58,125 bases of DNA from the NCBI GenBank assembly GCA_903920145.1, contig CAIXKV010000218.1, positions 1 to 58,125 of the forward strand, in the 5' to 3' direction. Position 1 is the first letter of the stretch, and the number at the start of each line of letters is the position of its first letter. Made by a program: the position numbers and the translations under genes. The stretch is from an uncultured Rhodospirillales bacterium (lineage in GTDB: Bacteria; Pseudomonadota; Alphaproteobacteria; Azospirillales; Azospirillaceae). Under the pieces are notes generated by a model. The model saw only the letters and a program-made list of their open reading frames with translations. It ran no database searches and had not been told where the DNA came from. Of this stretch, positions 2,080 to 21,590 are shown one piece after another.

Positions 2080-2907
2080 TCACTCCTGCCTGAGAAATCG
2101 GCCGCGTATCCAGGCACCGAGGAAATCGATGGCTGTGACCAGCCCGAGCAGGACGATGATCAGCGCCAGCGCCTCGCGGTATTCGAACAGATGAAAGGCC
2201 GTGATGATTTCCAGCCCGAGGCCGCCGGCGCCAACCACACCGAGAACGGTCGCGGCTCGGACATTGTGCTCCCAGCGATAGAGCGTGACATCGACCAGCC
2301 GTGGCAAAATTTGCGGCACGACGCTGAAACGCAGCACGCCCAATCGTGAGACGCCCTGGCTGCGCAGAGCGTCGCCAGGGCCGGGATCGACGTGTTCCAG
2401 AATCTCGGCGTAGAACTTGCCGAGCATGCCGGTGGAATGGCAAGCCAGCGCGAACACGCCTGGAAGTGGTCCGAAGCCGACTGCGGCCACGAAAATCACC
2501 CCCCAGACCAGCCCAGGGATCGATCTCACTGTGTTGAGCAACAGCCTGATCGGCGCGCCACACCAAGTCGGTCCGATGGTGCGTGCCGCCAGAATGCCCA
2601 GCGGCAAGGCGGCCATGCAGGCCAGCACGGTTCCGGCAATGCTCATAGCCAGGGTTTCCAGCAACGGACGGCCCCAGAGTTGCCAGCGGCTGAAGTCAGG
2701 CGGAAACGAGTCCGCAGCCAGGGTCAAAATCGTCGACACGGCACCGCGATAGCGCTCCAGATCGAAGGCATTGGCATAGGCGAAGGCACCCGCGATCACC
2801 AGCACCAGCACGACTGTAGTCGCGACACCACTCAGTACACGGCGGCGGCCGTCGTCCAGGACGGCCGCCAGTTCCGCGTCCTTCGATGTGGTTGGGATGG
2901 CGGTCAC
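2080..2907 (-). CDS. phnE: PhnE-type ABC transporter permease
   Basis: A 275-residue inner-membrane permease of the phosphonate/phosphite type. It has an N-terminal membrane segment near residues 22-45 and a BPD-transport block with further helices from about 80. The cytoplasmic EAA-like loop around residues 190-215 (DALRSQGVSRLGVLRFSVVP) contacts the ATPase. Its start overlaps the phnD stop by 4 bases, showing translational coupling. It should form the membrane channel with PhnC and PhnD encoded just upstream. The substrate cannot be read from sequence: phosphonate, phosphite or phosphate are the known family substrates, and vanadate is an inference from the nearby vanadium nitrogenase. Confidence 0.92.
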   Translation of the reverse strand: MTAIPTTSKDAELAAVLDDGRRRVLSGVATTVVLVLVIAGAFAYANAFDLERYRGAVSTILTLAADSFPPDFSRWQLWGRPLLETLAMSIAGTVLACMAALPLGILAARTIGPTWCGAPIRLLLNTVRSIPGLVWGVIFVAAVGFGPLPGVFALACHSTGMLGKFYAEILEHVDPGPGDALRSQGVSRLGVLRFSVVPQILPRLVDVTLYRWEHNVRAATVLGVVGAGGLGLEIITAFHLFEYREALALIIVLLGLVTAIDFLGAWIRGRFLRQE

Positions 2908-3791
2908 GGTGCTGGAACTGCATCCGGGTTAGCGCGGCCGATCGCCTCGATCCAGCTGCGGACTGGATCGGCATCGGCATCGACGCAGGGAATAAACGCT
3001 TCGGCGCGGAACACCTTGAGTGCCTCGGGATCGGTGACGTGGAGAAAGGCTTCACGGACTTCCTCTTTGAACGTCGGATCGAGGCCATCGCGGAAGACCC
3101 ACATGTATTCGGGGATCGGGGGCGAAGACGCCAGCACTCGCACCGAGTTGGCGTCGATCTTGCCCTCCTTGAGCAAGCGGTTGTAGATCGGCAGGGACAG
3201 GCCGCCCGCAGCGACCTTATGATTGGAAACTGCCAGTGCGACCGCATCGTGGGCGCCCAGTACCCGCAAGGTGTAATCACGCCCCGAGACCAGACCGGCT
3301 TCGAGCAACTGGTAGCGCGGAACCCAGGTGCCCGAAGTCGAGGCAGGGTCGCCGAACGCCACCTCACCCCCCTTGAGATCGCCCAGGGTCTTGGCTGGGC
3401 TGTCGGCGGGAACGATGACTACCGCCTGGAAGGTCGGCCCCGTCCCCTGGTGTGAAGGCCGGGCGAAGGGTTCTAATTTAGCACTTCGCGAACGCAGGAT
3501 ATAGGTTACCGGCCCCAGATAGGCGATGTCGAGCCGCCCGAAGCGCAACGCCTCGCCAGTGGCGGCGTAGTTGGCGCCTACCACCAGTTCCACCGGCAGG
3601 CCCAGCCGCCGCTCCAAATAGGCCCGCAACGGCTCGTTCAGCCGCATAACTGTCGGGGCGGATTCCCCAGGCAGCAGCCCGACCACCAGTTTCGACGGGC
3701 GGGTCTGGGCCGCCGCCTGGGAGAGCGGAAGCAACAGGCCGCCCGCCAGCAAGGCTACGGCCAGAACCAGTGGTTTCCAGTGACGGCGCAT
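2904..3791 (-). CDS. phnD: PhnD-type oxyanion-binding periplasmic protein
   Basis: A 295-residue solute-binding protein of the phosphate/phosphite/phosphonate family. A signal peptide covers about residues 1-29 and ends SQAAAQ. Family motifs are visible: the FGRLDIAYLGP strand near residues 107-117 and the binding-loop GDPASTSGTWVPR near 161-173, where backbone and Ser/Thr hydroxyls normally grip a tetrahedral oxyanion. It sits between phnC (14-base gap) and phnE (4-base overlap). Because it lies inside an alternative-nitrogenase region, vanadate, a phosphate analogue, is a possible ligand, but this is inference. Phosphonate or phosphite are the default family readings. Confidence 0.92.
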   Translation of the reverse strand: MRRHWKPLVLAVALLAGGLLLPLSQAAAQTRPSKLVVGLLPGESAPTVMRLNEPLRAYLERRLGLPVELVVGANYAATGEALRFGRLDIAYLGPVTYILRSRSAKLEPFARPSHQGTGPTFQAVVIVPADSPAKTLGDLKGGEVAFGDPASTSGTWVPRYQLLEAGLVSGRDYTLRVLGAHDAVALAVSNHKVAAGGLSLPIYNRLLKEGKIDANSVRVLASSPPIPEYMWVFRDGLDPTFKEEVREAFLHVTDPEALKVFRAEAFIPCVDADADPVRSWIEAIGRANPDAVPAP

Positions 3792-3805
3792 GGGATTTCC
3801 TTTCT

Positions 3806-4597
3806 TCAGGGAGAGACGGGGCCTTGCCCATCCAGGGGAGCATGGGATGGAAAAATGCGGTTCTCGGCGGCGGCGTCGAAGGCGGCGGCGGGACCGTCGA
3901 AGGCAACCCGGCCGTCGGCGAGGCCGACGATGCGGTCGGCCAGAGTCCGGGCCATCTGAAGCTGATGCAGCACCAGAATTACAGTGAGGCCGCCGCGCGC
4001 GACCAGGCGACGGAACTCCTCGGCCAGTCGCCGAGCCAGTGCCGGGTCTACCGAGGCAAAGGGTTCATCGCCCAGCAGCAGGCGTGGACACCGCACCAAG
4101 GCGCGAGCGATACCGACCCGTTGGCGTTCCCCGCCCGAAAGCCGATCGATGCGGGTGGTGGCTCGGCCCAACAAACCCACCTCGTCTAGTGCCCGCGCCG
4201 CCCGTTCGCGCAGGGCGCGAGGCCAGGGCAAAGGCGACAGCGGATGGCGGCTGTCGGCCAGTCCGAGCAGCACATTGTCGAGCGCCGACAGGCGGTCGAT
4301 CAAGGCGTGGTTCTGGAAAACGGTGGCGGTGCGCCGACGCGCCTCGCGCAATGTCCCGGCTTCGTCGAGACGTCCGATGCCGGCCATTGAAATAGCTCCA
4401 TCCGAGGGTCGCAGCAAGCCGTTCAGGGCCCCCATCAGCGTGGTCTTGCCGACCCCTGACGGACCGACCACGGCGGTAATGCTGTCTTCGGCGAACGACA
4501 GCGACAGTTCGTGCAGAACGGTTCGGTTACCACGCCGTACGGTCAGGCGCTCCACCGTGACGGTGGCAAGTTGGGGGGATGTAACGGAAAACGGCAT
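3806..4597 (-). CDS. phnC: PhnC-type ABC transporter ATP-binding protein
   Basis: A 263-residue ABC ATPase energising the PhnDE system. Walker A is GPSGVGKTT near residues 45-53, the signature LSGGERQRVGIARAL near 154-168, Walker B LLLGDEPFASVDP near 173-185, and the H-loop histidine follows in VLHQLQM. The start ATG at 4597 has GGAGG 8 bases upstream. First gene of the phnCDE-GNAT operon. Its upstream region (4598-5082) holds no recognisable sigma-54 promoter, so unlike its neighbours this operon is probably not directly under the nitrogenase activators. Confidence 0.93.
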   Translation of the reverse strand: MPFSVTSPQLATVTVERLTVRRGNRTVLHELSLSFAEDSITAVVGPSGVGKTTLMGALNGLLRPSDGAISMAGIGRLDEAGTLREARRRTATVFQNHALIDRLSALDNVLLGLADSRHPLSPLPWPRALRERAARALDEVGLLGRATTRIDRLSGGERQRVGIARALVRCPRLLLGDEPFASVDPALARRLAEEFRRLVARGGLTVILVLHQLQMARTLADRIVGLADGRVAFDGPAAAFDAAAENRIFPSHAPLDGQGPVSP

Positions 4598-4910: not shown

Positions 4911-5058
4911 ATACCAACGGCCCTAGACAATGATCCGTGCCGTTGGTATCGGCGGCGACTGCCGCCGCAGGCCCCATGGCGCGAAGCCAAGGGCGCGGGT
5001 GCGCCCGCCCGGCGTCTGAGGGCAGCCTTGATGAGTCACCATCAAGGCCCGATGGTAT
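4911..5058. repeat. modular palindromic repeat, copy 1
   Basis: This composite starts with hairpin H3 (TACCAACGG / CCGTTGGTA, 4912-4949). It continues through the GC-rich spacer S (several short inverted repeats) and ends with hairpin H1 (CCTTGATG-agtcac-CATCAAGG then CCGATGGTAT). It lies between phnC and the DUF364 gene, which are in the same orientation. The flanking region 4598-4910 holds the tandem repeat above and no gene. Confidence 0.9.
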
Positions 5059-5082: not shown

Positions 5083-6375
5083 CTATCTGTCTCGTTCTGA
5101 ATCCCCCTGATCTGAAAGGCGGGTCCGTGATTGGTGTATAAAGCGTCCGAACCGCCCGAACTCCCGAGGCAAAGCTCCGGCACGGATCGCCGACGCCAGA
5201 CCAGCGGGGTTGTCGACCACCAGGCCGCCCAGCACCTCAATACCGTATTCGTACAGCCTGGACGTCATCGGTGTGGTCGGTCCGATCAGGGCGACGCGGC
5301 GATTGCGGGCGAGCCGAAGAATGCGCGGTAAACTGCGGTTGATCAGCGCCGACGCATTGATGATTGCGGCACCGCACCTGGGTAGCAGGGTGTCCATAGC
5401 CATAGTGGGAAACTCGCCCGGCTGTGGGTCAGTCTCGATCACGGCGCGATTAGGCAGGATCTCGTCGACACCAGGGAAGGCGCCTATCACAACCACCCGC
5501 CCCGCGACCTTGCGAAAGACTTTGACGCCGTTGCCAGGATACCCCTCAAGGTCGAAGCGGTTGTAGTGGGCGTTGATTGCGGCGATGCCCAGTGCCATCT
5601 CCAGCGGATCCCAGGAACGCGACAGCCCAGCCAGACTGCGCAGACTCTGGCCAACATAGCTCGGCAGGCGGGGCAGTAGGCGGCGCGGATGCTGCGGCAG
5701 GTAGGCCAGCCCAGCGCCGAACGGCCCTTCGACCATGATCCAGCGCAGGCCGCAGGCGATCTGGCGAACCTCGTGTTCGGCAACGCCCAGGGTCAAGTCG
5801 CGATACAGCCGCTCCGGCCCCCACCAGGACCACAACGACGCGAGGTCGGGCGAGATCATTGCGCCGTCCTGGCGGGCATAGCTGTGCCATTTATGGATGC
5901 ACTGTCCAGCAATCGAGGTCAGCAGTGGCATGCCCTGGGAAACGTCGGTGCCGATCGGCGCCTTGAGGCTTTCGGTGGCCTCAAGGCAGGCGGCGAAGCG
6001 GCTGATCACGAGCAGGTCGGCATCCTCGCGCGTGGCTTGGCGCAAGTAGCGAGTGGCCGCGTCCTGCTCGACCGAAAGGGTGGCGGAGGTGCTGAGGTCG
6101 AAATACTCGATGCGTGGGGCGCAGCCCTGGCCTTTCTCGGCGCAGCCGCGGTTGTTGCGCTGGACATAGCCGGTAACGTGGAAGCCCCGGCCGCGCAGGC
6201 CCAAGGCGAATTCCGCCAGCAGGCCGTCGATGCGCTCGATTGGGTCATGGACCACCACTCCGGGCCGGACCCATGGCGCCTGCATCGGCTCGAAGGTGCC
6301 GATCGTGTCGTGCCCCCTCGTGACGGCGCGGTCCCGGTCCGCTTCACATCTTCGCTTTGTGCCGATCATGGCCAT
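5083..6375 (-). CDS. DUF2478-DUF364 fusion, candidate metal-handling protein
   Basis: A 430-residue two-domain protein. The first part (about residues 30-165) resembles DUF2478, a nucleotide-binding-like domain often encoded near molybdenum genes, with GLLAEFALGLRGRGF and an acidic/Cys segment. The second part (about 180-420) resembles DUF364, a Rossmann-like putative heavy-metal chelation domain, with VVVIGAFPGVDE and NASALINRSLPRILRLA. The start is uncertain: ATG 6375 lies 7 bases after the small upstream gene; ATG 6285 and 6438 are alternatives. A sigma-54 promoter at 6559-6573 and a shared GTAC dyad link it to the divergent operon at 6771. Its role in V, Mo or Fe handling is inferred from context only. 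Confidence 0.8.
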   Translation of the reverse strand: MAMIGTKRRCEADRDRAVTRGHDTIGTFEPMQAPWVRPGVVVHDPIERIDGLLAEFALGLRGRGFHVTGYVQRNNRGCAEKGQGCAPRIEYFDLSTSATLSVEQDAATRYLRQATREDADLLVISRFAACLEATESLKAPIGTDVSQGMPLLTSIAGQCIHKWHSYARQDGAMISPDLASLWSWWGPERLYRDLTLGVAEHEVRQIACGLRWIMVEGPFGAGLAYLPQHPRRLLPRLPSYVGQSLRSLAGLSRSWDPLEMALGIAAINAHYNRFDLEGYPGNGVKVFRKVAGRVVVIGAFPGVDEILPNRAVIETDPQPGEFPTMAMDTLLPRCGAAIINASALINRSLPRILRLARNRRVALIGPTTPMTSRLYEYGIEVLGGLVVDNPAGLASAIRAGALPREFGRFGRFIHQSRTRLSDQGDSERDR

Positions 6376-6382
6376 CCTGTGG

Positions 6383-6520
6383 TCAAGGGCAGATCGAACG
6401 GGCCAGCCCGCACCAGGCTGGCTCGCTCTTTTGTTCATAATCGCGGAAGGCTTGAGCGAGTCCGATCAGCACTTCCGCCGAGGTTTCAAAGAGCGCTTTG
6501 AACTGAGGATCATCGTTCAT
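6383..6520 (-). CDS. small hypothetical protein, 45 aa
   Basis: A short reading frame of 45 residues starting MNDDPQFKALFETSAEVL, amphipathic helical in its first 30 residues. It lies between the minus-strand sigma-54 promoter (6559-6573) and the DUF2478-DUF364 gene, ending 7 bases before that gene's likely start. The upstream sequence has GGAG and GGGG stretches that are not ideally spaced. It may be a real leader or small protein, or the true N-terminal part if a frameshift is present. No family recognised. Confidence 0.45.
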   Translation of the reverse strand: MNDDPQFKALFETSAEVLIGLAQAFRDYEQKSEPAWCGLARSICP

Positions 6521-6770: not shown

Positions 6771-7808
6771 ATGGTTTCGCCAGTCGTATCAGACCTGCTG
6801 ATCCGCCCGCCCAAGACCTCGACAACGCGGATCCTGTTCATCGCCCGCCATGCCCCCCAGGAGCCGAACTACGCATGCCGCAGCTATCCCGGTGACGGTG
6901 GCTATCCGGCCTATTACCACCGGGTCTGGCAGGTTCTAACCGACCTGGGCTATCGCGTGCGCACGGCTAACCACTGTTTGGCTTTGTTGGCTGCGCCCGG
7001 CCATGTGGATCTGGTGTTCTCGCTTTATAACCGCATACCCATCGACCATCCCGAAATCTTCGTGGCTTCGACCTGCGCGTTCCTGGGTCTGCCCAACGTC
7101 GGCGCCGGTCCCAACATCCGCGCCCTGGCCGAGGACAAGTGGCTGTCCAAGCTGGCGGCCAGAGCGGTGGGCATCCCGGTGGCCGAGGGCGCGATCTACT
7201 GCTCGGCCGAGGAACTGGCGGTGCCGCCGCCCTTCGTCGGTCCCTATTTCGTTAAGAACCGCTTCGGCGCCGCCTCGGAAGGGATCAGCGTTGAGTCGAT
7301 TCAGGACGACTGGGCCGGAGCCGCCGCCGTCGCTCGGGCCCTGCTGGAGCGCGGCCTTGCGGTGCTGGTCGAAGCCTACATTCCTGGCATCGACCTCACG
7401 GTGCCGATGCTCGGCGGTCGACAGCCGATCATGCTGGGAGTGGTCCGGCCGCGCTCCGACCAGATTGGCGGCATCATCACCGAGCACCTCAAACGCGACG
7501 ACCCACTGGGCTACGAACTGTTCCGGGACGATGCCGCCGAAACCGCCATGAGGGCCGACGTGACCGCTCTTTGGGTTGCGCTCGGCCCCATGGACTATGC
7601 CCGCCTCGACTATCGCTTCGATCCCAGGAGCGGCCGGCGGGTGTTTCTGGAGTTCAACATTTGCTGCCACATCGGCCGCAGCGGCGCCATCTGCCTGGCC
7701 GCCGGCCAATGGGGGCTGGATCAGGCCGACCTGCTCGGCCACGTGGTCGAATACTGCCTCAGCCGTCAATCAACCACCATCCGGGAGCCCCGCGCATGGG
7801 TGTCATGA
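6771..7808 (+). CDS. ATP-grasp enzyme, D-Ala-D-Ala-ligase-like
   Basis: A 345-residue cytoplasmic protein with the ATP-grasp layout. An N-terminal part (residues 1-110) is followed by the ATP-binding lid region (EDKWLSKLAARAVGIPV, then PYFVKNRFGAASEGI near 155-170) and a Mg-binding segment (MDYARLDYRFDP then FLEFN near 272-297). Such enzymes ligate a carboxylate to an amine through an acyl phosphate. An unusual CRSYPGDGGYPAYYHRVW block near residue 37 may form the substrate site. The start has GAGGAGG 8 bases upstream. First gene of an operon under a sigma-54 promoter and a VnfA-like dyad. The substrate is unknown; it is not expected to be a cell-wall ligase, as it stands apart from division genes. 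Confidence 0.82.
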   Translation: MVSPVVSDLLIRPPKTSTTRILFIARHAPQEPNYACRSYPGDGGYPAYYHRVWQVLTDLGYRVRTANHCLALLAAPGHVDLVFSLYNRIPIDHPEIFVASTCAFLGLPNVGAGPNIRALAEDKWLSKLAARAVGIPVAEGAIYCSAEELAVPPPFVGPYFVKNRFGAASEGISVESIQDDWAGAAAVARALLERGLAVLVEAYIPGIDLTVPMLGGRQPIMLGVVRPRSDQIGGIITEHLKRDDPLGYELFRDDAAETAMRADVTALWVALGPMDYARLDYRFDPRSGRRVFLEFNICCHIGRSGAICLAAGQWGLDQADLLGHVVEYCLSRQSTTIREPRAWVS

Positions 7809-8884
7809 CCGCCGGAGCGCGGATCGTCCTCGACGTCACCCCGCCGGTCGGGTCTGCAAACCGACCGTTCGGCGACGCTGCCGTGCCGCGCGGTACGCCC
7901 CAGGGATGGGATTTGCTCGGTACCGTTCCGGTGCCGTTGCGTCATCGGGTTCGCGACGGCGTCGCCGATCTCGTGGCGCGCTACCGGGCCGAGGGCGGTT
8001 CGGCACTGAAATGCTGTTTTCCTATGGGCCAGGGCGGCCGCACGCCGTTCGATCGGCTTCGCTTCATCCGTGCGCTCGACGACTATCCCAACATGTTGGT
8101 CTCGTCCGAACACGGCAACGCCTTCAATCACCGATTCTACGCCCGCCATGTGGCCGATGGCGCCTTCGTCGGCAGCCAGCCCGCCGGCGTCGTCGCCGCT
8201 TTCGCCGAGGCTGGTCTGGTCGACCCCGAGGACCGCATCGGGGTGTTCGCGGTGGCGCCGTTCGTGCTGCTGATCGACCATGGCCGCCTGAACGGTCTGC
8301 CGCCCCCGCGCCGCTGGGCCGACCTCATGGACCCGCGTTATCGCGATCAGGTGGTGTTCAGCGGCTGGCGCCGGGATGGCGAGCGCCGTCACCGCCAGGT
8401 CAATCTGTTTTTCCTGCTGTCGATGGCGCGGGCGTTCGGCCTGGCCGGACTGGCGCGGCTGCTCGACAACGTCCCGGCCTTGCTGCATTCGGCCCAGATG
8501 CCGCGGCTGGCCGGTACCGACGCTTCGCCGGGTGGCATCTATGTGCTGCCGTGGTCCCTGGCCGCTCTCTGCCCCCGCCGCGTCGACACCGAGGTGGTAT
8601 GGCCCGAAGACGGGGCGTTGGCCTATCCGCTGTGGCTGACGGTCAAGACAGCCCATCGCGAGCGCCTCAACGTCCTGGTTCGCCACTTTCATGGCGCCGA
8701 CCTGGGACGCGTCCTCAATGACAACCGCTACCCGGCCTTGTGTCCCGATCTGACGCCTGCGCTGCCCGCCGGTGCCCGGCTGAGTTGGTTGGGCTGGGAC
8801 TTCGTGCGTCACCCGACCACCGCGAGGCTGCTGCGGGCGATCCGCGAGATATTTGCCGACCAGGAGGACCGCCTATGCGCGTGA
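7796..8884 (+). CDS. substrate-binding-like protein without signal peptide
   Basis: A 362-residue protein resembling ABC transporter substrate-binding proteins of the iron/spermidine-type fold, but with no signal peptide, so probably cytoplasmic. Visible features are a KCCFPMGQGG loop near residue 76, with a Cys pair, SEHGNAFNHRF near 104 and PPRRWADLMDPRYRDQVVFSG near 170. The last is typical of the hinge region in which such proteins close on a ligand. ATG 7796 is chosen because GGGAG lies 8 bases upstream; ATG 7805 is an alternative overlapping the previous stop. It overlaps both neighbours. A cytoplasmic binding protein beside a GTPase and an ABC ATPase suggests metal or cofactor handling rather than import. 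Function unknown. Confidence 0.75.
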   Translation: MGVMTAGARIVLDVTPPVGSANRPFGDAAVPRGTPQGWDLLGTVPVPLRHRVRDGVADLVARYRAEGGSALKCCFPMGQGGRTPFDRLRFIRALDDYPNMLVSSEHGNAFNHRFYARHVADGAFVGSQPAGVVAAFAEAGLVDPEDRIGVFAVAPFVLLIDHGRLNGLPPPRRWADLMDPRYRDQVVFSGWRRDGERRHRQVNLFFLLSMARAFGLAGLARLLDNVPALLHSAQMPRLAGTDASPGGIYVLPWSLAALCPRRVDTEVVWPEDGALAYPLWLTVKTAHRERLNVLVRHFHGADLGRVLNDNRYPALCPDLTPALPAGARLSWLGWDFVRHPTTARLLRAIREIFADQEDRLCA

Positions 8885-9573
8885 TCACGGTCGCCGGGCC
8901 GCCCTCGGTGGGCAAGACCTCGGTCATCGTCAGGACCGTCAAGGCCCTGGCCACCCAGGGCCTTGACGTCGGCATCGTCAAGTTCGACGCCCTGTCGACC
9001 TCGGATGATCAGGTCTATCGGCGTGCCGGGCTGCCGGTGGTGGTCGGCCTTTCGGGCAGCGTCTGTCCCGACCATTTCTTCGTCAGCAACATCGACGACT
9101 GCCTGGGTTGGGGCCAACAGGCGGGACTCGACATACTGATCGCCGAGAGCGCCGGCCTGTGCAACCGCTGCTCGCCGCACATCCAGGGGGTTCTGGCGGT
9201 CTGTGTCGTCGACATGCTCTCGGGTATCCATACCCCGCGCAAGATTGGCCCGATGCTGAAACTGGCCGACTTGGCCGTGGTCACCAAAGGCGACATCGTC
9301 TCTCAGGCCGAACGCGAGGTCTTCGCCTTCAATGTCCGCCTGGCCAATCCCCGCGCCATAATCCTGTTCTTCAACGGCATCACAGGCCAGGGCGCTGCCG
9401 AACTCGCCTTTCACTTGCGTCAGGCGCCGCCGGTGGAGACTCTGGATGGCCGGCGCCTGCGCTTTCCCATGCCGTCCTCGGTCTGCCCCTATTGCATCGG
9501 CGAAACCGTGATCGGTCGCGACCATCAGCGCGGCAACGTGCGCAAGATGAGCTTTGAAAGTGCATCGGCATGA
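8875..9573 (+). CDS. Cys-rich SIMIBI/G3E-type GTPase (HypB/CobW-like)
   Basis: A 232-residue P-loop GTPase. Walker A GPPSVGKT is at residues 8-15, a switch Asp lies near 38 (VKFDAL), and TKGD at 137-140 serves as the guanine-specificity motif. Cysteine motifs are prominent: CPDHFF at 64, CNRCSPH at 96-102 and CPYC at 204-207. Together they could hold a metal or Fe-S cluster. The family is related to HypB, UreG and CobW, which load metals into enzymes, but this clade differs from all three and I know no characterised member. AGGAGG precedes the start, which overlaps the previous gene by 10 bases. In this operon a role in metallocofactor delivery for the vanadium nitrogenase is plausible but unproven. 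Confidence 0.82.
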   Translation: MRVITVAGPPSVGKTSVIVRTVKALATQGLDVGIVKFDALSTSDDQVYRRAGLPVVVGLSGSVCPDHFFVSNIDDCLGWGQQAGLDILIAESAGLCNRCSPHIQGVLAVCVVDMLSGIHTPRKIGPMLKLADLAVVTKGDIVSQAEREVFAFNVRLANPRAIILFFNGITGQGAAELAFHLRQAPPVETLDGRRLRFPMPSSVCPYCIGETVIGRDHQRGNVRKMSFESASA

Positions 9574-10598
9574 GGGATCGGATGCTGTCGCTGACCCTCG
9601 CCGAGTTGGCCGGCTGGCACCCGGCGATCACCGAGTTCCTGATCTCGGCCGATGCTGCCGGGGCCAAGCCGGCCCGGACCCTGGACGCCTGGCTGCGGGC
9701 GCTGACCGATGACCGTCTGTCCGACATCGGCATGGATCGTGATCAGGTGCTGGACCATCTTGAAGCCTTGGCGCATCAGGTCGAGACGCTGCGCGGCACG
9801 TCCGAACAGTCGGTGCGGTCCCTGACCGTTCTCGGCGGACACGACAAGAGTGATCGCCCGGAAGTGCTGACCCTGACCCTCCAGGTCGGCGACGTGCTGT
9901 GCATCGTCGGCCCCACCGGTTCGGGCAAGAGCCGTCTTCTGGCCGACATCGAATGCCTGGCCCAGGGCGACACCCCGACCGGCCGCCGGGTTCTGGTCAA
10001 TGACGCACCGCCCGATCCCGGCTGGCGCTTCGCCTCTGGCCGTAAGCTGATCGCACAACTGTCCCAGAACATGAATTTTGTGGTCGACCTGACGGTCGGC
10101 GAGTTCGTGGCCATGCATGCCGATTGCCGCATGGCGCCTAACCGTGACGCCGTGGTGCGCGAAGTCATCGCCTGCGCCAATGACCTCGCCGGCGAGAGCT
10201 TCGCTGTCGGGGTGTCGCTAACCCAGTTGAGCGGCGGCCAGACCCGGGCGTTGATGATCGCCGACACCGCGCTCCTGTCGGCGTCGCCGGTAGTGCTGAT
10301 CGACGAGATCGAAAACGCAGGCATCGACCGCAAGAAAGCACTGGCGTTGCTGATCGCCCAAGAAAAGATCGTGCTGATCTCGACCCACGACCCGGTGTTG
10401 GCCTTGCTGGGCAGCCGACGCATTGTGCTCCGCAACGGTGCCGTCGCAGAGATCATCGAGACTGGGGCGGACGAGAAGGCCAATTTGGCCATCCTGGAAC
10501 GGATCGACCGTAGCCTGATGGAGGTGCGTCATCGCCTGCGCTGCGGTCAGCGTATTGATGTCCCCCTGGCATGGCCGCCGACCCTGGATAATGAGTGA
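9570..10598 (+). CDS. ABC-type ATPase with extra N-terminal domain
   Basis: A 342-residue ATPase. Residues 1-80 form a helical domain resembling DUF1858-like or hybrid-cluster-associated domains (LAELAGWHPAITEFLISADA). The ABC part follows, with Walker A GPTGSGKS at 114-121, signature LSGGQ at 220-224, Walker B VVLIDEIENAGID at 241-253 and H-loop H273. No permease is encoded nearby, so it may be a soluble ABC ATPase working with the GTPase and binding protein rather than a transporter. The start overlaps the GTPase stop (ATGA); ATG 9582, with GAGG upstream, is an alternative. Function unknown. Confidence 0.8.
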   Translation: MRDRMLSLTLAELAGWHPAITEFLISADAAGAKPARTLDAWLRALTDDRLSDIGMDRDQVLDHLEALAHQVETLRGTSEQSVRSLTVLGGHDKSDRPEVLTLTLQVGDVLCIVGPTGSGKSRLLADIECLAQGDTPTGRRVLVNDAPPDPGWRFASGRKLIAQLSQNMNFVVDLTVGEFVAMHADCRMAPNRDAVVREVIACANDLAGESFAVGVSLTQLSGGQTRALMIADTALLSASPVVLIDEIENAGIDRKKALALLIAQEKIVLISTHDPVLALLGSRRIVLRNGAVAEIIETGADEKANLAILERIDRSLMEVRHRLRCGQRIDVPLAWPPTLDNE

Positions 10599-11154
10599 GC
10601 ACATGGACGCCATAACGTTGCTGCTGGAGCGGCGATCCTGCGCCGCGCTGCAAGCACCCGCCCCGGAGGGCGAGGCATTGACTGTCATCTTGCAGGCGGC
10701 CTTGCGGGTTCCTGACTTTCAACGGCTGCGCCCATACCATTTTATCTTGGCTTCAGGAGACGGCCTTGATCGTTTGGGTGCGTTGATGGCGCGCGCCGCC
10801 GTCGCGACCGACCGGTCGCCCGAGGAGATCGAACGCGCCCGCCGCATGCCTCATCGCGCCCCACTGGTGATCGTGGTCGTCTCCCGCTATCGCCCAAGCC
10901 TCATCGTCAGTCGGTTCGAACAGCATCTGAGCGCCGGGTGCGCAGTGATGGCCATGCAGATGGCGGCGGTAGCGCAAGGGTTCGGCGGCATCTGGCGATC
11001 AGGATGGCTGATGTTTGATCGCGGTCTGCACACGGCTCTCCATCTTGAACAAGACGATCACATAATTGGCTTTCTCTATCTCGGCACGCCAACCCTTGCT
11101 CCAAGCAAGCCGATCCCCACCGTCGACGTTAACAACTATGTCCGCTGGCTTTAA
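10591..11154 (+). CDS. nitroreductase-family flavoprotein
   Basis: A 187-residue FMN-dependent oxidoreductase of the YdjA/nitroreductase type. The LERRSCAAL motif near residues 11-19 contacts the FMN phosphate. LRVPDFQRLRPYHFIL and the GCAVMAMQMAAVAQGFGGIWRSGW segment (near 112-135) form the dimer and flavin pocket. The start overlaps the end of the ABC ATPase gene; ATG 10603 is an alternative. Last gene of the operon. In this setting it could reduce a metal or cofactor intermediate, but the family accepts many substrates. Family assignment is firm, role is not. Confidence 0.87.
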   Translation: MSEHMDAITLLLERRSCAALQAPAPEGEALTVILQAALRVPDFQRLRPYHFILASGDGLDRLGALMARAAVATDRSPEEIERARRMPHRAPLVIVVVSRYRPSLIVSRFEQHLSAGCAVMAMQMAAVAQGFGGIWRSGWLMFDRGLHTALHLEQDDHIIGFLYLGTPTLAPSKPIPTVDVNNYVRWL

Positions 11155-15435: not shown

Positions 15436-15921
15436 TCAGATTTCCTGGTCGTCCAGCGCCAGCCGGTTACCGACGCCGTCTCGCATCACCCGGCGCAGCC
15501 ACAGCGGCGGTACGCCGTTCAGCATGCGCTGAAGATTGACGATGATCTCGTCGATATCCCGAACTCGCTCGCTCTTGACCGGGAACACCCGCTGATTGTG
15601 GACTCGCACCGCCGCCAAATCGCTGAGGCCCAGGGCGAACAGCACCGAACAGCCTTCCAGGGCCTCGACCCGCTCGAGCAGCGGATCCCGTCCGGTGCCG
15701 TCGTCGTCGTCCATCTCGTCCATGACGCAACCGCCGCCGGCGGTACCCTGGCCGCCGCCCAGCCCTTTCTTGGCGCCCCGGCTGAAATGAACCACGTCGA
15801 CGAATTCCGAGGCATCGCGCGTAACGTCGTAGAACACCACCTGCTTGGCGACGGCGAAGTTGGCATCCACCTGGATGAGGCTGTTGGTGGCGATGGCGAT
15901 CCGGAGGTGCGGGCAATCCAT
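15436..15921 (-). CDS. vnfX: VnfX/NifX-family cofactor-binding protein
   Basis: A 161-residue protein of the dinitrogenase FeMo-cofactor biosynthesis family. It opens with LRIAIATNSLIQVDANFAVAK (the NifX strand and loop), has a GC-rich acidic insertion near residues 50-75 (GGGQGTAGGGCVMDEMDDDD) and ends with NLQRMLNGVPPLWLRR, a typical NifX/NafY tail. Such proteins carry NifB-co or VK-cluster type precursors between assembly proteins. It is 38 bases downstream of the 297-residue gene in the vnfDGK orientation, so VnfX is the natural name; a Mo-type NifX cannot be excluded. Confidence 0.85.
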   Translation of the reverse strand: MDCPHLRIAIATNSLIQVDANFAVAKQVVFYDVTRDASEFVDVVHFSRGAKKGLGGGQGTAGGGCVMDEMDDDDGTGRDPLLERVEALEGCSVLFALGLSDLAAVRVHNQRVFPVKSERVRDIDEIIVNLQRMLNGVPPLWLRRVMRDGVGNRLALDDQEI

Positions 15922-15959: not shown

Positions 15960-16853
15960 TCAGGTCATCGGCTGGTTGACCGCTGCGATGTCGCGGCCGA
16001 AGCGCGGACGGAAGTTGGCCGGTAGGGTGGTCCCGTCGGCGGTGCGGGCGCGCCAGCGATCGAGTTCAGCCAGCGGCAGTCGGCCATCGGTCAGGGCTTC
16101 GACCGGGATGATGTGCAGGACGTCGCCCAGAGTGACAAAGAAATCGATGGGATAAAGCGCCGGATTACGCTGCGCTGCTCCGATCTCGATTTCCAGGAAC
16201 TCGCTGTCGAGCCGGACCTTGGGGTTGTCGCAGTCAAAGCGGAAATGGCGGTTGAGCGCCGGCTGGGCGCGGAACTGGTAGAGGCTGCGCCCCTCATCGG
16301 AATATCGTCTGATTTCATCGACAATATCATGAAAATACTGGGCGAGCAGCGACTCCACATAGGCCGCCGGGTACGGTTGGCGGAGCGCGTCCAGGTAATA
16401 GGCCACCGCCGATTCCAAAAGCATCAGACCCGCAGACGACACGTCCAGGATCAGCACCACCTTGTTGACGATGCCTTTGATCTTGACCACGCCGTTCTGC
16501 ATCTCGATGACGCTTTGGGGATCGAACGCCACGGTTCGCGCCACCCGCAGCACCCGATACAATTCGGCGACCATACGGTCGGTCTGGGTGGTGCGGGGTA
16601 ACTCGAGATACCACTGCCAGCTTGCCATGCCCTCAACCGATTGGTTTCGGGAGGCGAGGACGGCATCCAGCACCATAAAGGCACGGCAAACCCCGGCAAT
16701 CCGGTCGAGCGGCACGCCGTGGCTGGCTTCGGGGGCGGCAAAAGTCAGGGCCTTGCGCTTGGAATAGAGTTCGATCTGCCGGTATTCGGGCAGTGCCAAC
16801 GGGTTGGGCGAATCGGCGGACAGCACCGCGATCAGATCGAGCAGCAACGTCAT
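15960..16853 (-). CDS. uncharacterised vnf-operon protein, 297 aa
   Basis: No family is recognised. It is 297 residues, predicted cytoplasmic, without signal peptide or membrane helix. It has a helical middle (SAGLMLLESAVAYYLDALRQ near 140-160) and a C-terminal part with paired aromatic and acidic residues (YPIDFFVTLGDVLHIIPVEALTDGRL near 238-263). Cysteines are few. It lies 75 bases after vnfK and 38 bases before vnfX, so is very likely co-transcribed and linked to vanadium nitrogenase assembly or protection. It does not look like AnfO or NifEN. Homology searches of vnf loci would show whether it is a standard partner. Confidence 0.85.
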   Translation of the reverse strand: MTLLLDLIAVLSADSPNPLALPEYRQIELYSKRKALTFAAPEASHGVPLDRIAGVCRAFMVLDAVLASRNQSVEGMASWQWYLELPRTTQTDRMVAELYRVLRVARTVAFDPQSVIEMQNGVVKIKGIVNKVVLILDVSSAGLMLLESAVAYYLDALRQPYPAAYVESLLAQYFHDIVDEIRRYSDEGRSLYQFRAQPALNRHFRFDCDNPKVRLDSEFLEIEIGAAQRNPALYPIDFFVTLGDVLHIIPVEALTDGRLPLAELDRWRARTADGTTLPANFRPRFGRDIAAVNQPMT

Positions 16854-16928: not shown

Positions 16929-20187
<3,259 letters not shown>

Positions 20188-20265: not shown

Positions 20266-20279
20266 GTTCCGTTCGGTAC
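20266..20279. promoter_or_regulatory. VnfA-like activator site, GTTC-N6-GTAC
   Basis: On the minus strand this reads GTAC-CGAACG-GAAC, which fits the GTAC-N6-GAAC form I recall for the Azotobacter VnfA site. It lies midway between the two sigma-54 promoters (79 and 74 bases away). A second partial dyad, GTAC-N6-GTGC, is at 20296-20309 and a lone GTAC at 20330. Confidence 0.65.
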
Positions 20280-20352
20280 GATCGCGCGGGCAAGAGTACC
20301 GATTGGTGCGCCGTCGGAAGCCACAGGCGGTACTTTAGCGGGAAAGGTGCTT

Positions 20353-20367
20353 TGGCACGGCCGTTGC
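20353..20367 (+). promoter_or_regulatory. sigma-54 promoter of the NifX-glyoxalase gene
   Basis: TGGCAC-GGCCG-TTGC, an exact consensus match, 35 bases before the start codon at 20403. Confidence 0.9.
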
Positions 20368-20402: not shown

Positions 20403-21209
20403 ATGGACGACCTTTCCTTCGACCCCCACCCCCCCACTGCCGTGACGGTGGCGACGCCGCTGCGGATCGCCGTCGCGAGCCAGGACGGCAGCCGAGTTGA
20501 TCAGCATTTCGGTCAAACCGAAGCGTTCCTGGTGTTCGATGTCACCGCCGCTGGTGCAGTCGCGATCGGGACTCGGGCCATTGCCGATCACGCCGTGGGC
20601 GACGAGAACCCGCGCGACACCGTCTGCCGTATGCTGGCCGATTGCACGGTGCTGCTGGTCTCCAAGATCGGCATCTCGCCCCAGGAAAAGCTGGCCGGCG
20701 TCGGCATTGAGGCCAGCGACCGGCATGCCGGAGAGTCAGTCGAAGCGGCGCTGGCCGCCGTGTTCGCCGCCAAAGCGGTTCGCCACGACAACACTCCGCT
20801 TGACGCCATCGGCTTTCGCTTGCGCCACGCCATGCTGCGGGTTGCAGACCTCGACCGATCGTTGGACTTCTATACCCGCCAATTGGGCATGCGGGTGCTG
20901 GAGCGCCGCGACCACAAGAGGAACCAGTTTTCCCAAGCCTATCTCGGTTACGGCGATGATTTCGGCGAGATGGCGCTGGAGCTGGTGGCCAACTGGACGC
21001 GCGACCAGCCTTACGCCGTGGGCGAGTCCTTCGGCCACATCGCCATTGAGGTGTTCGGCATCACCGCACTGTGCGACCGGCTGGCCGCCGCTGGCATCCC
21101 GATGCCGCGTCCGCCCCGTGCCCAACGCCACGGCGAAAACATTGTCGCCTTCATCGAAGACCCCGACGGCCACCGCATCGAACTGCTGCAACTGCCGAGC
21201 GGCGCGTAG
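20403..21209 (+). CDS. NifX-glyoxalase I fusion protein
   Basis: A 268-residue fusion. Residues 19-128 are a NifX/NifB-C-type cofactor-binding domain (IAVASQDGSRVDQHFGQTE, with H35 in the position used by relatives to bind the cluster, and VLLVSKIGISPQEKL). Residues 139-265 are a glyoxalase I (VOC fold) domain. The four metal ligands of GloA are all present: H142, E193, H212 and E260, spaced as in E. coli GloA (about 51, 19 and 48 residues). The start has GGAGAG upstream and a consensus sigma-54 promoter. Divergent from vnfD. Both domains look intact, so it may carry a FeV-co precursor and also bind a metal; methylglyoxal detoxification is the default family role. Confidence 0.9.
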   Translation: MDDLSFDPHPPTAVTVATPLRIAVASQDGSRVDQHFGQTEAFLVFDVTAAGAVAIGTRAIADHAVGDENPRDTVCRMLADCTVLLVSKIGISPQEKLAGVGIEASDRHAGESVEAALAAVFAAKAVRHDNTPLDAIGFRLRHAMLRVADLDRSLDFYTRQLGMRVLERRDHKRNQFSQAYLGYGDDFGEMALELVANWTRDQPYAVGESFGHIAIEVFGITALCDRLAAAGIPMPRPPRAQRHGENIVAFIEDPDGHRIELLQLPSGA

Positions 21210-21217
21210 CTGTTCTT

Positions 21218-21365
21218 ATACCCTCGAGCCTTGATGGTGACTCATCAAGGCTGCCCTCAGACGCCGGGCGGGCGCATCCGCGCCCTTGGCTTCGCGCCAT
21301 GGGGCGCGCGGCGGCGGTCGCCGCCGATACCAACGGCACGGATCATTGTCTAGGCCCGTTGGTAT
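21218..21365. repeat. modular palindromic repeat, copy 4
   Basis: H1 half-hairpin, spacer S and H3 (TACCAACGGCACGG..CCCGTTGGTA) between the NifX-glyoxalase gene and the Nif11 gene. Confidence 0.9.
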
Positions 21366-21392: not shown

Positions 21393-21590
21393 ATGTCAGT
21401 CGAATCGGCCATTGCCTACATCAAGAGGATGCGCGAAGATCAAGATTTTCGCCGCGTCGTCAACAACAACAGCGAAGACGAGGCCGCCAATTGGGCTTTG
21501 GTCAAGGACGCCGGCTACGATTTCACCATGACCGAGTTCAAGCAGGCCCAAGACGTCATCTACAAGGAACATGGCATTACGCCGATGTGA
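21393..21590 (+). CDS. Nif11-family small protein
   Basis: A 65-residue protein of the Nif11 family (SAIAYIKRMREDQDFRRVVN, WALVKDAGYDFTMTEFKQAQ). The family takes its name from nif-linked genes and also serves as leader region for some RiPP precursors. There is no Gly-Gly cleavage motif or Cys-rich core after the Nif11 part, so this is the nif-type form, not an obvious RiPP precursor. AGAAGGA precedes the start. It follows the NifX-glyoxalase gene, separated by a repeat, so it may share that transcript. Confidence 0.88.
   Translation: MSVESAIAYIKRMREDQDFRRVVNNNSEDEAANWALVKDAGYDFTMTEFKQAQDVIYKEHGITPM

Follow-up and report, generated by a model that had tools for sequence, protein, structure and literature searches.

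Why should a vanadium nitrogenase (vnf) gene cluster hold, beside vnfD, a gene that joins a cofactor-carrier domain to a glyoxalase I domain? The question is raised by a 58,125-nucleotide stretch of DNA from an uncultured Rhodospirillales bacterium, which was analysed as a whole and is called the window here. A preliminary description had proposed that a NifX-type domain was fused in frame to a glyoxalase I domain with all four metal ligands kept, under a consensus sigma-54 promoter, and had offered two roles: vanadium or carbonate handling by the VOC domain, which was and stays speculation, or simple detoxification.

The gene is read from an ATG at 20403, with GGAGAG just upstream, and its parts are as follows.

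20403..21209, forward strand: NifX/NafY-type plus GloA-type fusion ORF, 268 aa, a single open frame
20454..20774, forward strand: NifX/NafY-type domain (residues 18-124; PF02579), fold match, aligned to the NafY core (1p90) and NifX (9ian)
20505-20513, forward strand: His35-Phe-Gly motif of that domain
20775..20813, forward strand: variable linker (residues 125-137), low column identity and low pLDDT
20814..21194, forward strand: GloA-type VOC domain (residues 138-264), ligands H142, E193, H212 and E260

Pfam placed Nitro_FeMo-Co (PF02579) at residues 28-120 with 59.2 bits (gathering cutoff 26.3) and Glyoxalase (PF00903) at residues 139-261 with 73.2 bits (cutoff 20.6), both well above cutoff within the one frame, which confirmed the proposed fusion. 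The four ligands, aligned to H5, E56, H74 and E122 of E. coli GloA, were kept as described, and together with the fold they place the second domain among GloA-type VOC domains. An AlphaFold2 model of the fusion reached a mean pLDDT of 79.5 and a pTM of 0.58, with confidence low at residues 1-15 and reduced across the linker. Its NifX half matched 1p90 (NafY core, Z 15.5) and 9ian (NifX from the NifEN-NifX complex, Z 14.2), and the best structural matches of its GloA half were the GloA enzymes 4mts (Z 15.8) and 1f9z (Z 15.6); this PDB comparison covered both domains and speaks to fold, and it cannot show a dimer or a metal. The same in-frame junction recurred in 12 further aligned sequences, and pairwise dN/dS was 0.03-0.23 in each domain, indicating purifying selection on both, so that the fusion is not a frame artefact. 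Column identity averaged 83% over the GloA domain and 74% over the NifX domain, against 51% across the linker. Chance or a frame artefact as the source of the fusion was ruled out by its presence in 14 species.

The ORF is surrounded by vnf genes, listed here with the predicted promoter.

15436-15921, reverse strand: NifX-like protein at the vnfY position that contains an acidic, glycine-rich insert
16929..18335, reverse strand: vnfK, TIGR02932 above cutoff
18332..18673, reverse strand: vnfG, TIGR02930 above cutoff
18670..20088, reverse strand: vnfD, the divergent neighbour; TIGR01860 at 977 bits (NCBIfam cutoff 823)
20353..20367, forward strand: predicted sigma-54 promoter TGGCACGGCCGTTGC, 10/10 match, recurring upstream of all orthologs examined
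21393..21590, forward strand: Nif11-domain small ORF downstream of the fusion (PF07862/TIGR03798), identified also by synteny

The predicted site (TGGCAC-N5-TTGC) matches the consensus at 10/10 and ends 35 nt upstream of the fusion ATG, and the divergent vnfD starts (20088) 314 bp from the fusion ORF, so that the promoter and the position first reported both stood up. A sigma-54-like site of at least 9/10 was present in all 16 upstream regions examined (10/10 in 13). It lies 19-53 nt upstream of the start in all but L016, where the distance is 133 nt and the start is uncertain; shuffled sequences gave such a site in about 0.3% per sequence. By this predicted promoter in the vnf divergent region, the fusion is a putative member of the vnf regulon. 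In addition, GTAC motifs are repeated in the intergenic stretch 20276-20333, about 75-130 nt before the fusion start, and recur in the orthologs; they may be candidate activator (VnfA-type) sites. In most loci the Nif11 small ORF comes directly after the fusion, and in genomes where the two halves are separate genes its neighbour is the NifX half.

What would the NifX half contribute? Its His35 aligns with H35 of NifX, the residue that coordinates the apical Fe of NifB-co in the cryo-EM structure of NifEN-NifX (PMC13128457), and with H121 of NafY, the key FeMo-co ligand (PMC8496260). This histidine was invariant in 13/13 fusions and was present in both split copies. The half thus combines the PF02579 carrier domain with the cofactor-ligating His in a His-Phe-Gly motif, and it scored 40.4 bits against a cutoff of 112 for the NifX equivalog TIGR02663. 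From this one residue and the fold, we infer that His35 anchors a cofactor cluster, either NifB-co or FeV-co, to the domain. A 69-sequence tree grouped the NifX halves with the split NifX genes (98/93) and placed VnfX, the NifB C-terminal domains and the vnfY-position protein outside this clade. The VnfX and vnfY slots are already occupied in these clusters, the former by VnfX next to vnfN and the latter by the NifX-like protein two genes after vnfK, which has VDANF or similar in place of the His-Phe-Gly motif. The fusion is therefore a third vnf NifX-type lineage, and among the three the cofactor histidine is found, in these clusters, only in the fusion and VnfX.

The GloA half is vnf-specific and diverged. 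In a 40-sequence tree, 15 vnf-linked GloA domains formed one clade (100/100), set off from 25 ordinary GloA by a stem of 1.58 substitutions per site, with the 13 fused domains as a clade inside it (98/93), and the fusion was retained across several families. The metal ligands and the glutathione-site residues R146, N197 and R236 (R9, N60 and R98 in E. coli; R37, N103 and K150 in human) were invariant in all 15 vnf domains and in the ordinary bacterial set. All 15 shared H171, N174, Q175, Q178, Y180, V195, L223, Q241 and V248, positions at which ordinary GloA mostly has Y, G, R/E/K, L, F, T, T/A, M and I, respectively. Specifically, at E. coli positions 34, 41, 43 and 103 the vnf domains have H, Q, Y and Q (15/15) and ordinary GloA mostly Y, L, F and M; the vnf domains thus depart from the hydrophobic pocket of ordinary lactoylglutathione lyase. 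The pocket was mapped with the human GLO1 sequence, whose ligands aligned correctly. Positions 171, 178 and 180 align with human F62, L69 and F71, which are among the hydrophobic-pocket residues of glyoxalase I (PMC6268171). The part of the pocket that holds the methylglyoxal portion has turned more polar, with the metal and glutathione parts unchanged, and because the switch was to polar residues, a different, more polar ligand or substrate is suggested for the vnf GloA domain. Furthermore, the domain is without Zn-class insertions, and a glyoxalase I of this kind is expected to have a Ni/Co-type metal site, which would therefore be expected here too. The window protein scored 114.9 against the cutoff of 120 for TIGR00068 (lactoylglutathione lyase), and its orthologs straddle the cutoff (range 110-135); because some exceed it (123-135), ordinary glyoxalase activity is possible.

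These observations bear directly on detoxification, in which an ordinary glyoxalase I would be induced with vnf and clear methylglyoxal or another reactive aldehyde during vanadium-dependent growth, the NifX domain only targeting or regulating it. The kept metal ligands and glutathione-site residues, the GloA enzymes as best structural matches and the orthologs above the TIGR00068 cutoff all agree with such an enzyme, but the window genome (G000:C40, 51%) and most vnf-positive genomes examined also hold an ordinary gloA as a further gene, and the pocket equivalents of human F62, L69 and F71 are H, Q and Y in every vnf domain. In addition, the vnf clade is strongly divergent and absent from the vnf-free genomes of our samples, and the promoter is of vnf type. 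Detoxification, the second role first offered, is thus weakened by the separate gloA, the diverged pocket and the promoter; it is still live, and we hold it to be unlikely.

How closely is the gene tied to vanadium nitrogenase? A scan of one-genome-per-species contigs recovered 12 further full-length fusions (L005-L016), and blast of the window proteins showed a shared layout at these loci, with vnfK-vnfG-vnfD on one strand and the fusion divergent, usually followed by the Nif11 ORF and sometimes by vnfH. A thirteenth relative (G821) is interrupted by a contig end, one contig (C262) holding residues 19-190 beside vnfDGK and another (L020) the remainder. The fusion thus occurred in 14 species, each time abutting vnfDGK. 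Among 385 genomes of the class, vnfG was found in 2 and the fusion in those same 2, and the remaining matches at E <= 1e-30 covered the GloA half only, with identity <=53%. Among 82 genomes of the order, vnfG was found in 6, and the fusion was present in 4 of these and in none of the 76 without vnf; two genomes of the same genus without vnf (G431 and G433) had no fusion. A phylum sample of 398 genomes, which overlaps the class and order samples, added no exception, and the plasmid collection yielded no fusion. The survey of other vnf loci that the preliminary description had proposed therefore returned the same fusion in 13 further species, all adjoining vnfDGK, and the distribution said there to count against a vanadium role, mainly in genomes without alternative nitrogenase, was the opposite of that observed. 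Dedication of the fusion to V-nitrogenase is strongly supported.

Two narrower accounts of the distribution were rejected: confinement to the window genome, by the relatives in other species, and a tie to nif in general, on the sampled genomes. One apparent exception, a fusion C-terminus before nifHDK-like genes on L020, was also dismissed, the other half of that gene ending C262 of the same genome beside vnfDGK. On L020 (1-4814) the fusion C-terminus, a vnfH-like gene and nifDK-like genes stand on one contig, which may reflect a genuine vnf-nif junction or sequences joined in assembly at the H gene, the nif join lying beyond the H gene. The Nostoc vnf plasmid (L076) has no recognisable copy of the fusion, and published accounts of Azotobacter vnf that were consulted name no glyoxalase (PMC4465626, PMC8153082); for these reasons the fusion is a lineage-specific accessory of alphaproteobacteria and not a universal part of V-nitrogenase.

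The two vnf-positive genomes without the fusion (G388 and G416) encoded the two halves by individual genes of the vnf cluster. The stand-alone GloA of these genomes occupies the same divergent slot beside vnfD and is 63-69% identical to the C-terminal half of the fusion, depending on the stretch aligned. Their NifX-type gene shares 47-50% identity with the N-terminal half and lies next to nif11 about 8-10 kb off in the same cluster, and both genomes hold another gloA elsewhere. Since the halves occur in vnf clusters whether joined or separate, both are vnf-linked. Conservation of the pairing in split form, purifying selection in both domains, the conserved vnf-type promoter and retention across several families all speak against an accidental fusion, or the hitch-hiking of a gloA copy with a mobile vnf cluster, that would be functionally unconnected with nitrogenase. 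The vnf clusters of alphaproteobacteria are able to move, and the one in A. brasilense Sp245 may have been gained by transfer (PMC3899980), but hitch-hiking is already disfavoured and very improbable. Separate genes in one cluster would also fit a protein pair, and hence a GloA fold that has lost catalysis and serves as a dimerisation or docking module, taking a NifX-type carrier to the apo-VFe protein or VnfEN in the manner of the N-terminal domains of NafY and AnfO. Both proteins combine a NifX-like domain with another functional domain and so set a precedent for this arrangement (PMC8496260, PMC11938142). Pure docking would not need the four ligands and glutathione-site residues that are invariant in 15/15 domains, however, and we consider it distinctly unlikely.

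The reading that we prefer, with a probability of about 0.62, is that the fusion is a cofactor-maturation accessory dedicated to V-nitrogenase in alphaproteobacteria, with an altered glutathione/metal site. We counted in its favour the constant position of the fusion next to vnfDGK, the conserved promoter, His35, the invariant ligands, the switched pocket, the pairing in fused and split genomes, and a GloA domain more conserved than the NifX domain. Counted against it were the missing copy in Nostoc and in the Azotobacter accounts, the orthologs that pass the TIGR00068 cutoff, and a literature search for a glyoxalase with vanadium nitrogenase or vnf, which found no biochemical or genetic account of the protein. 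In such an accessory, the NifX/NafY-type domain would hold NifB-co or FeV-co via His35; the GloA domain would probably be homodimeric, with its Ni/Co-type metal site lying between the subunits by analogy with E. coli GloA, and would bind or act on a small polar, probably glutathione-dependent ligand; the pairing would put this site beside the carried cofactor, and the step served would be FeV-cofactor maturation or delivery. A more specific and rather unlikely version is that the diverged GloA site handles vanadium or a ligand (e.g., V-glutathione, homocitrate or carbonate) on the NifX-held precursor cluster; if true, the protein would be a previously undescribed V donor or FeV-co maturase.

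The route by which vanadium and the extra ligands reach the FeV-cofactor is poorly defined, and the fusion is a concrete candidate for that step, which can be studied in tractable organisms such as Rhodopseudomonas palustris. The genes of vnf clusters that are now annotated as 'glyoxalase' or 'lactoylglutathione lyase' make up a group of their own, and the results suggest that a private, altered glyoxalase I, joined to or near a carrier, is an unrecognised helper in the building of V-nitrogenase.

Several other features of the window accompany the vnf genes.

2080-4597, reverse strand: ABC transporter of the PhnCDE type, conserved next to vnf at most loci
5083-6438, reverse strand: DUF2478-DUF4213-DUF364 protein ('putative heavy-metal chelation')
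6771-11154, forward strand: five-gene block of an ATP-grasp-like protein, a solute-binding protein, a CobW/HypB-type GTPase, an ABC ATPase and a nitroreductase
15960-16853, reverse strand: 297-aa ORF after vnfK, conserved in the vnf loci examined

For the Azotobacter counterpart of the transporter, a role in vanadate uptake was suggested (PMC4465626). The DUF2478-DUF4213-DUF364 protein recurs beside vnf clusters, with two tandem copies in L015, and the five-gene block, conserved beside vnf in several genomes, is a candidate metal-handling pathway. The 297-aa ORF had no Pfam or NCBIfam match, and its position equals that of A. vinelandii vnfJ (PMC8153082). In addition, an interspersed repeat, TGGTGACTCATCAAGGCTGCCCTCAGACGCCGGGCGG, is present in 7 copies in the window, one between the fusion and nif11 (21235-21271) and the others at 5005, 11218, 14750, 38935, 49005 and 57989. 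The genome (4.26 Mb) contains about 489 copies of its 27-base core, often close to the ends of contigs, and the repeat resembles a highly abundant element of the REP or MITE type.

Among known systems, the carriers NafY (A. vinelandii) and NifX share with the fusion the NifX-type fold, the His-Phe-Gly cofactor ligand and a location in a nitrogenase gene cluster. The N-terminal domain of NafY binds apo-NifDK; the fusion has a C-terminal GloA domain with a metal site instead. VnfX and VnfY are likewise NifX-type vnf proteins, proposed as NifB-co or FeV-co carriers, whereas the fusion is a separate clade found beside both occupied slots. Glyoxalase I of the Ni/Co class (E. coli 1f9z; GloA2 4mtq/4mts) resembles the C-terminal half in fold, in the four metal ligands, in the R9/N60/R98 equivalents and in being without Zn-class insertions, but H171/Q178/Y180/Q241, the divergent clade, the carrier domain and the vnf promoter set the fusion apart. 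Finally, R. palustris RPA1377 is annotated only as 'Glyoxalase', and a suppressor strain with 18 mutations carries F250Y in this protein as one of them (PMC9973337). A Phe at residue 250 makes this protein too long for a lone GloA domain and corresponds to F249/F250 of the fusion, F249 being the only Phe near position 250 in the fusion of an R. palustris-labelled MAG (L011); on length, residue and annotation RPA1377 is therefore probably the ortholog of a laboratory strain, and the gene would thus already be in databases under a generic name.
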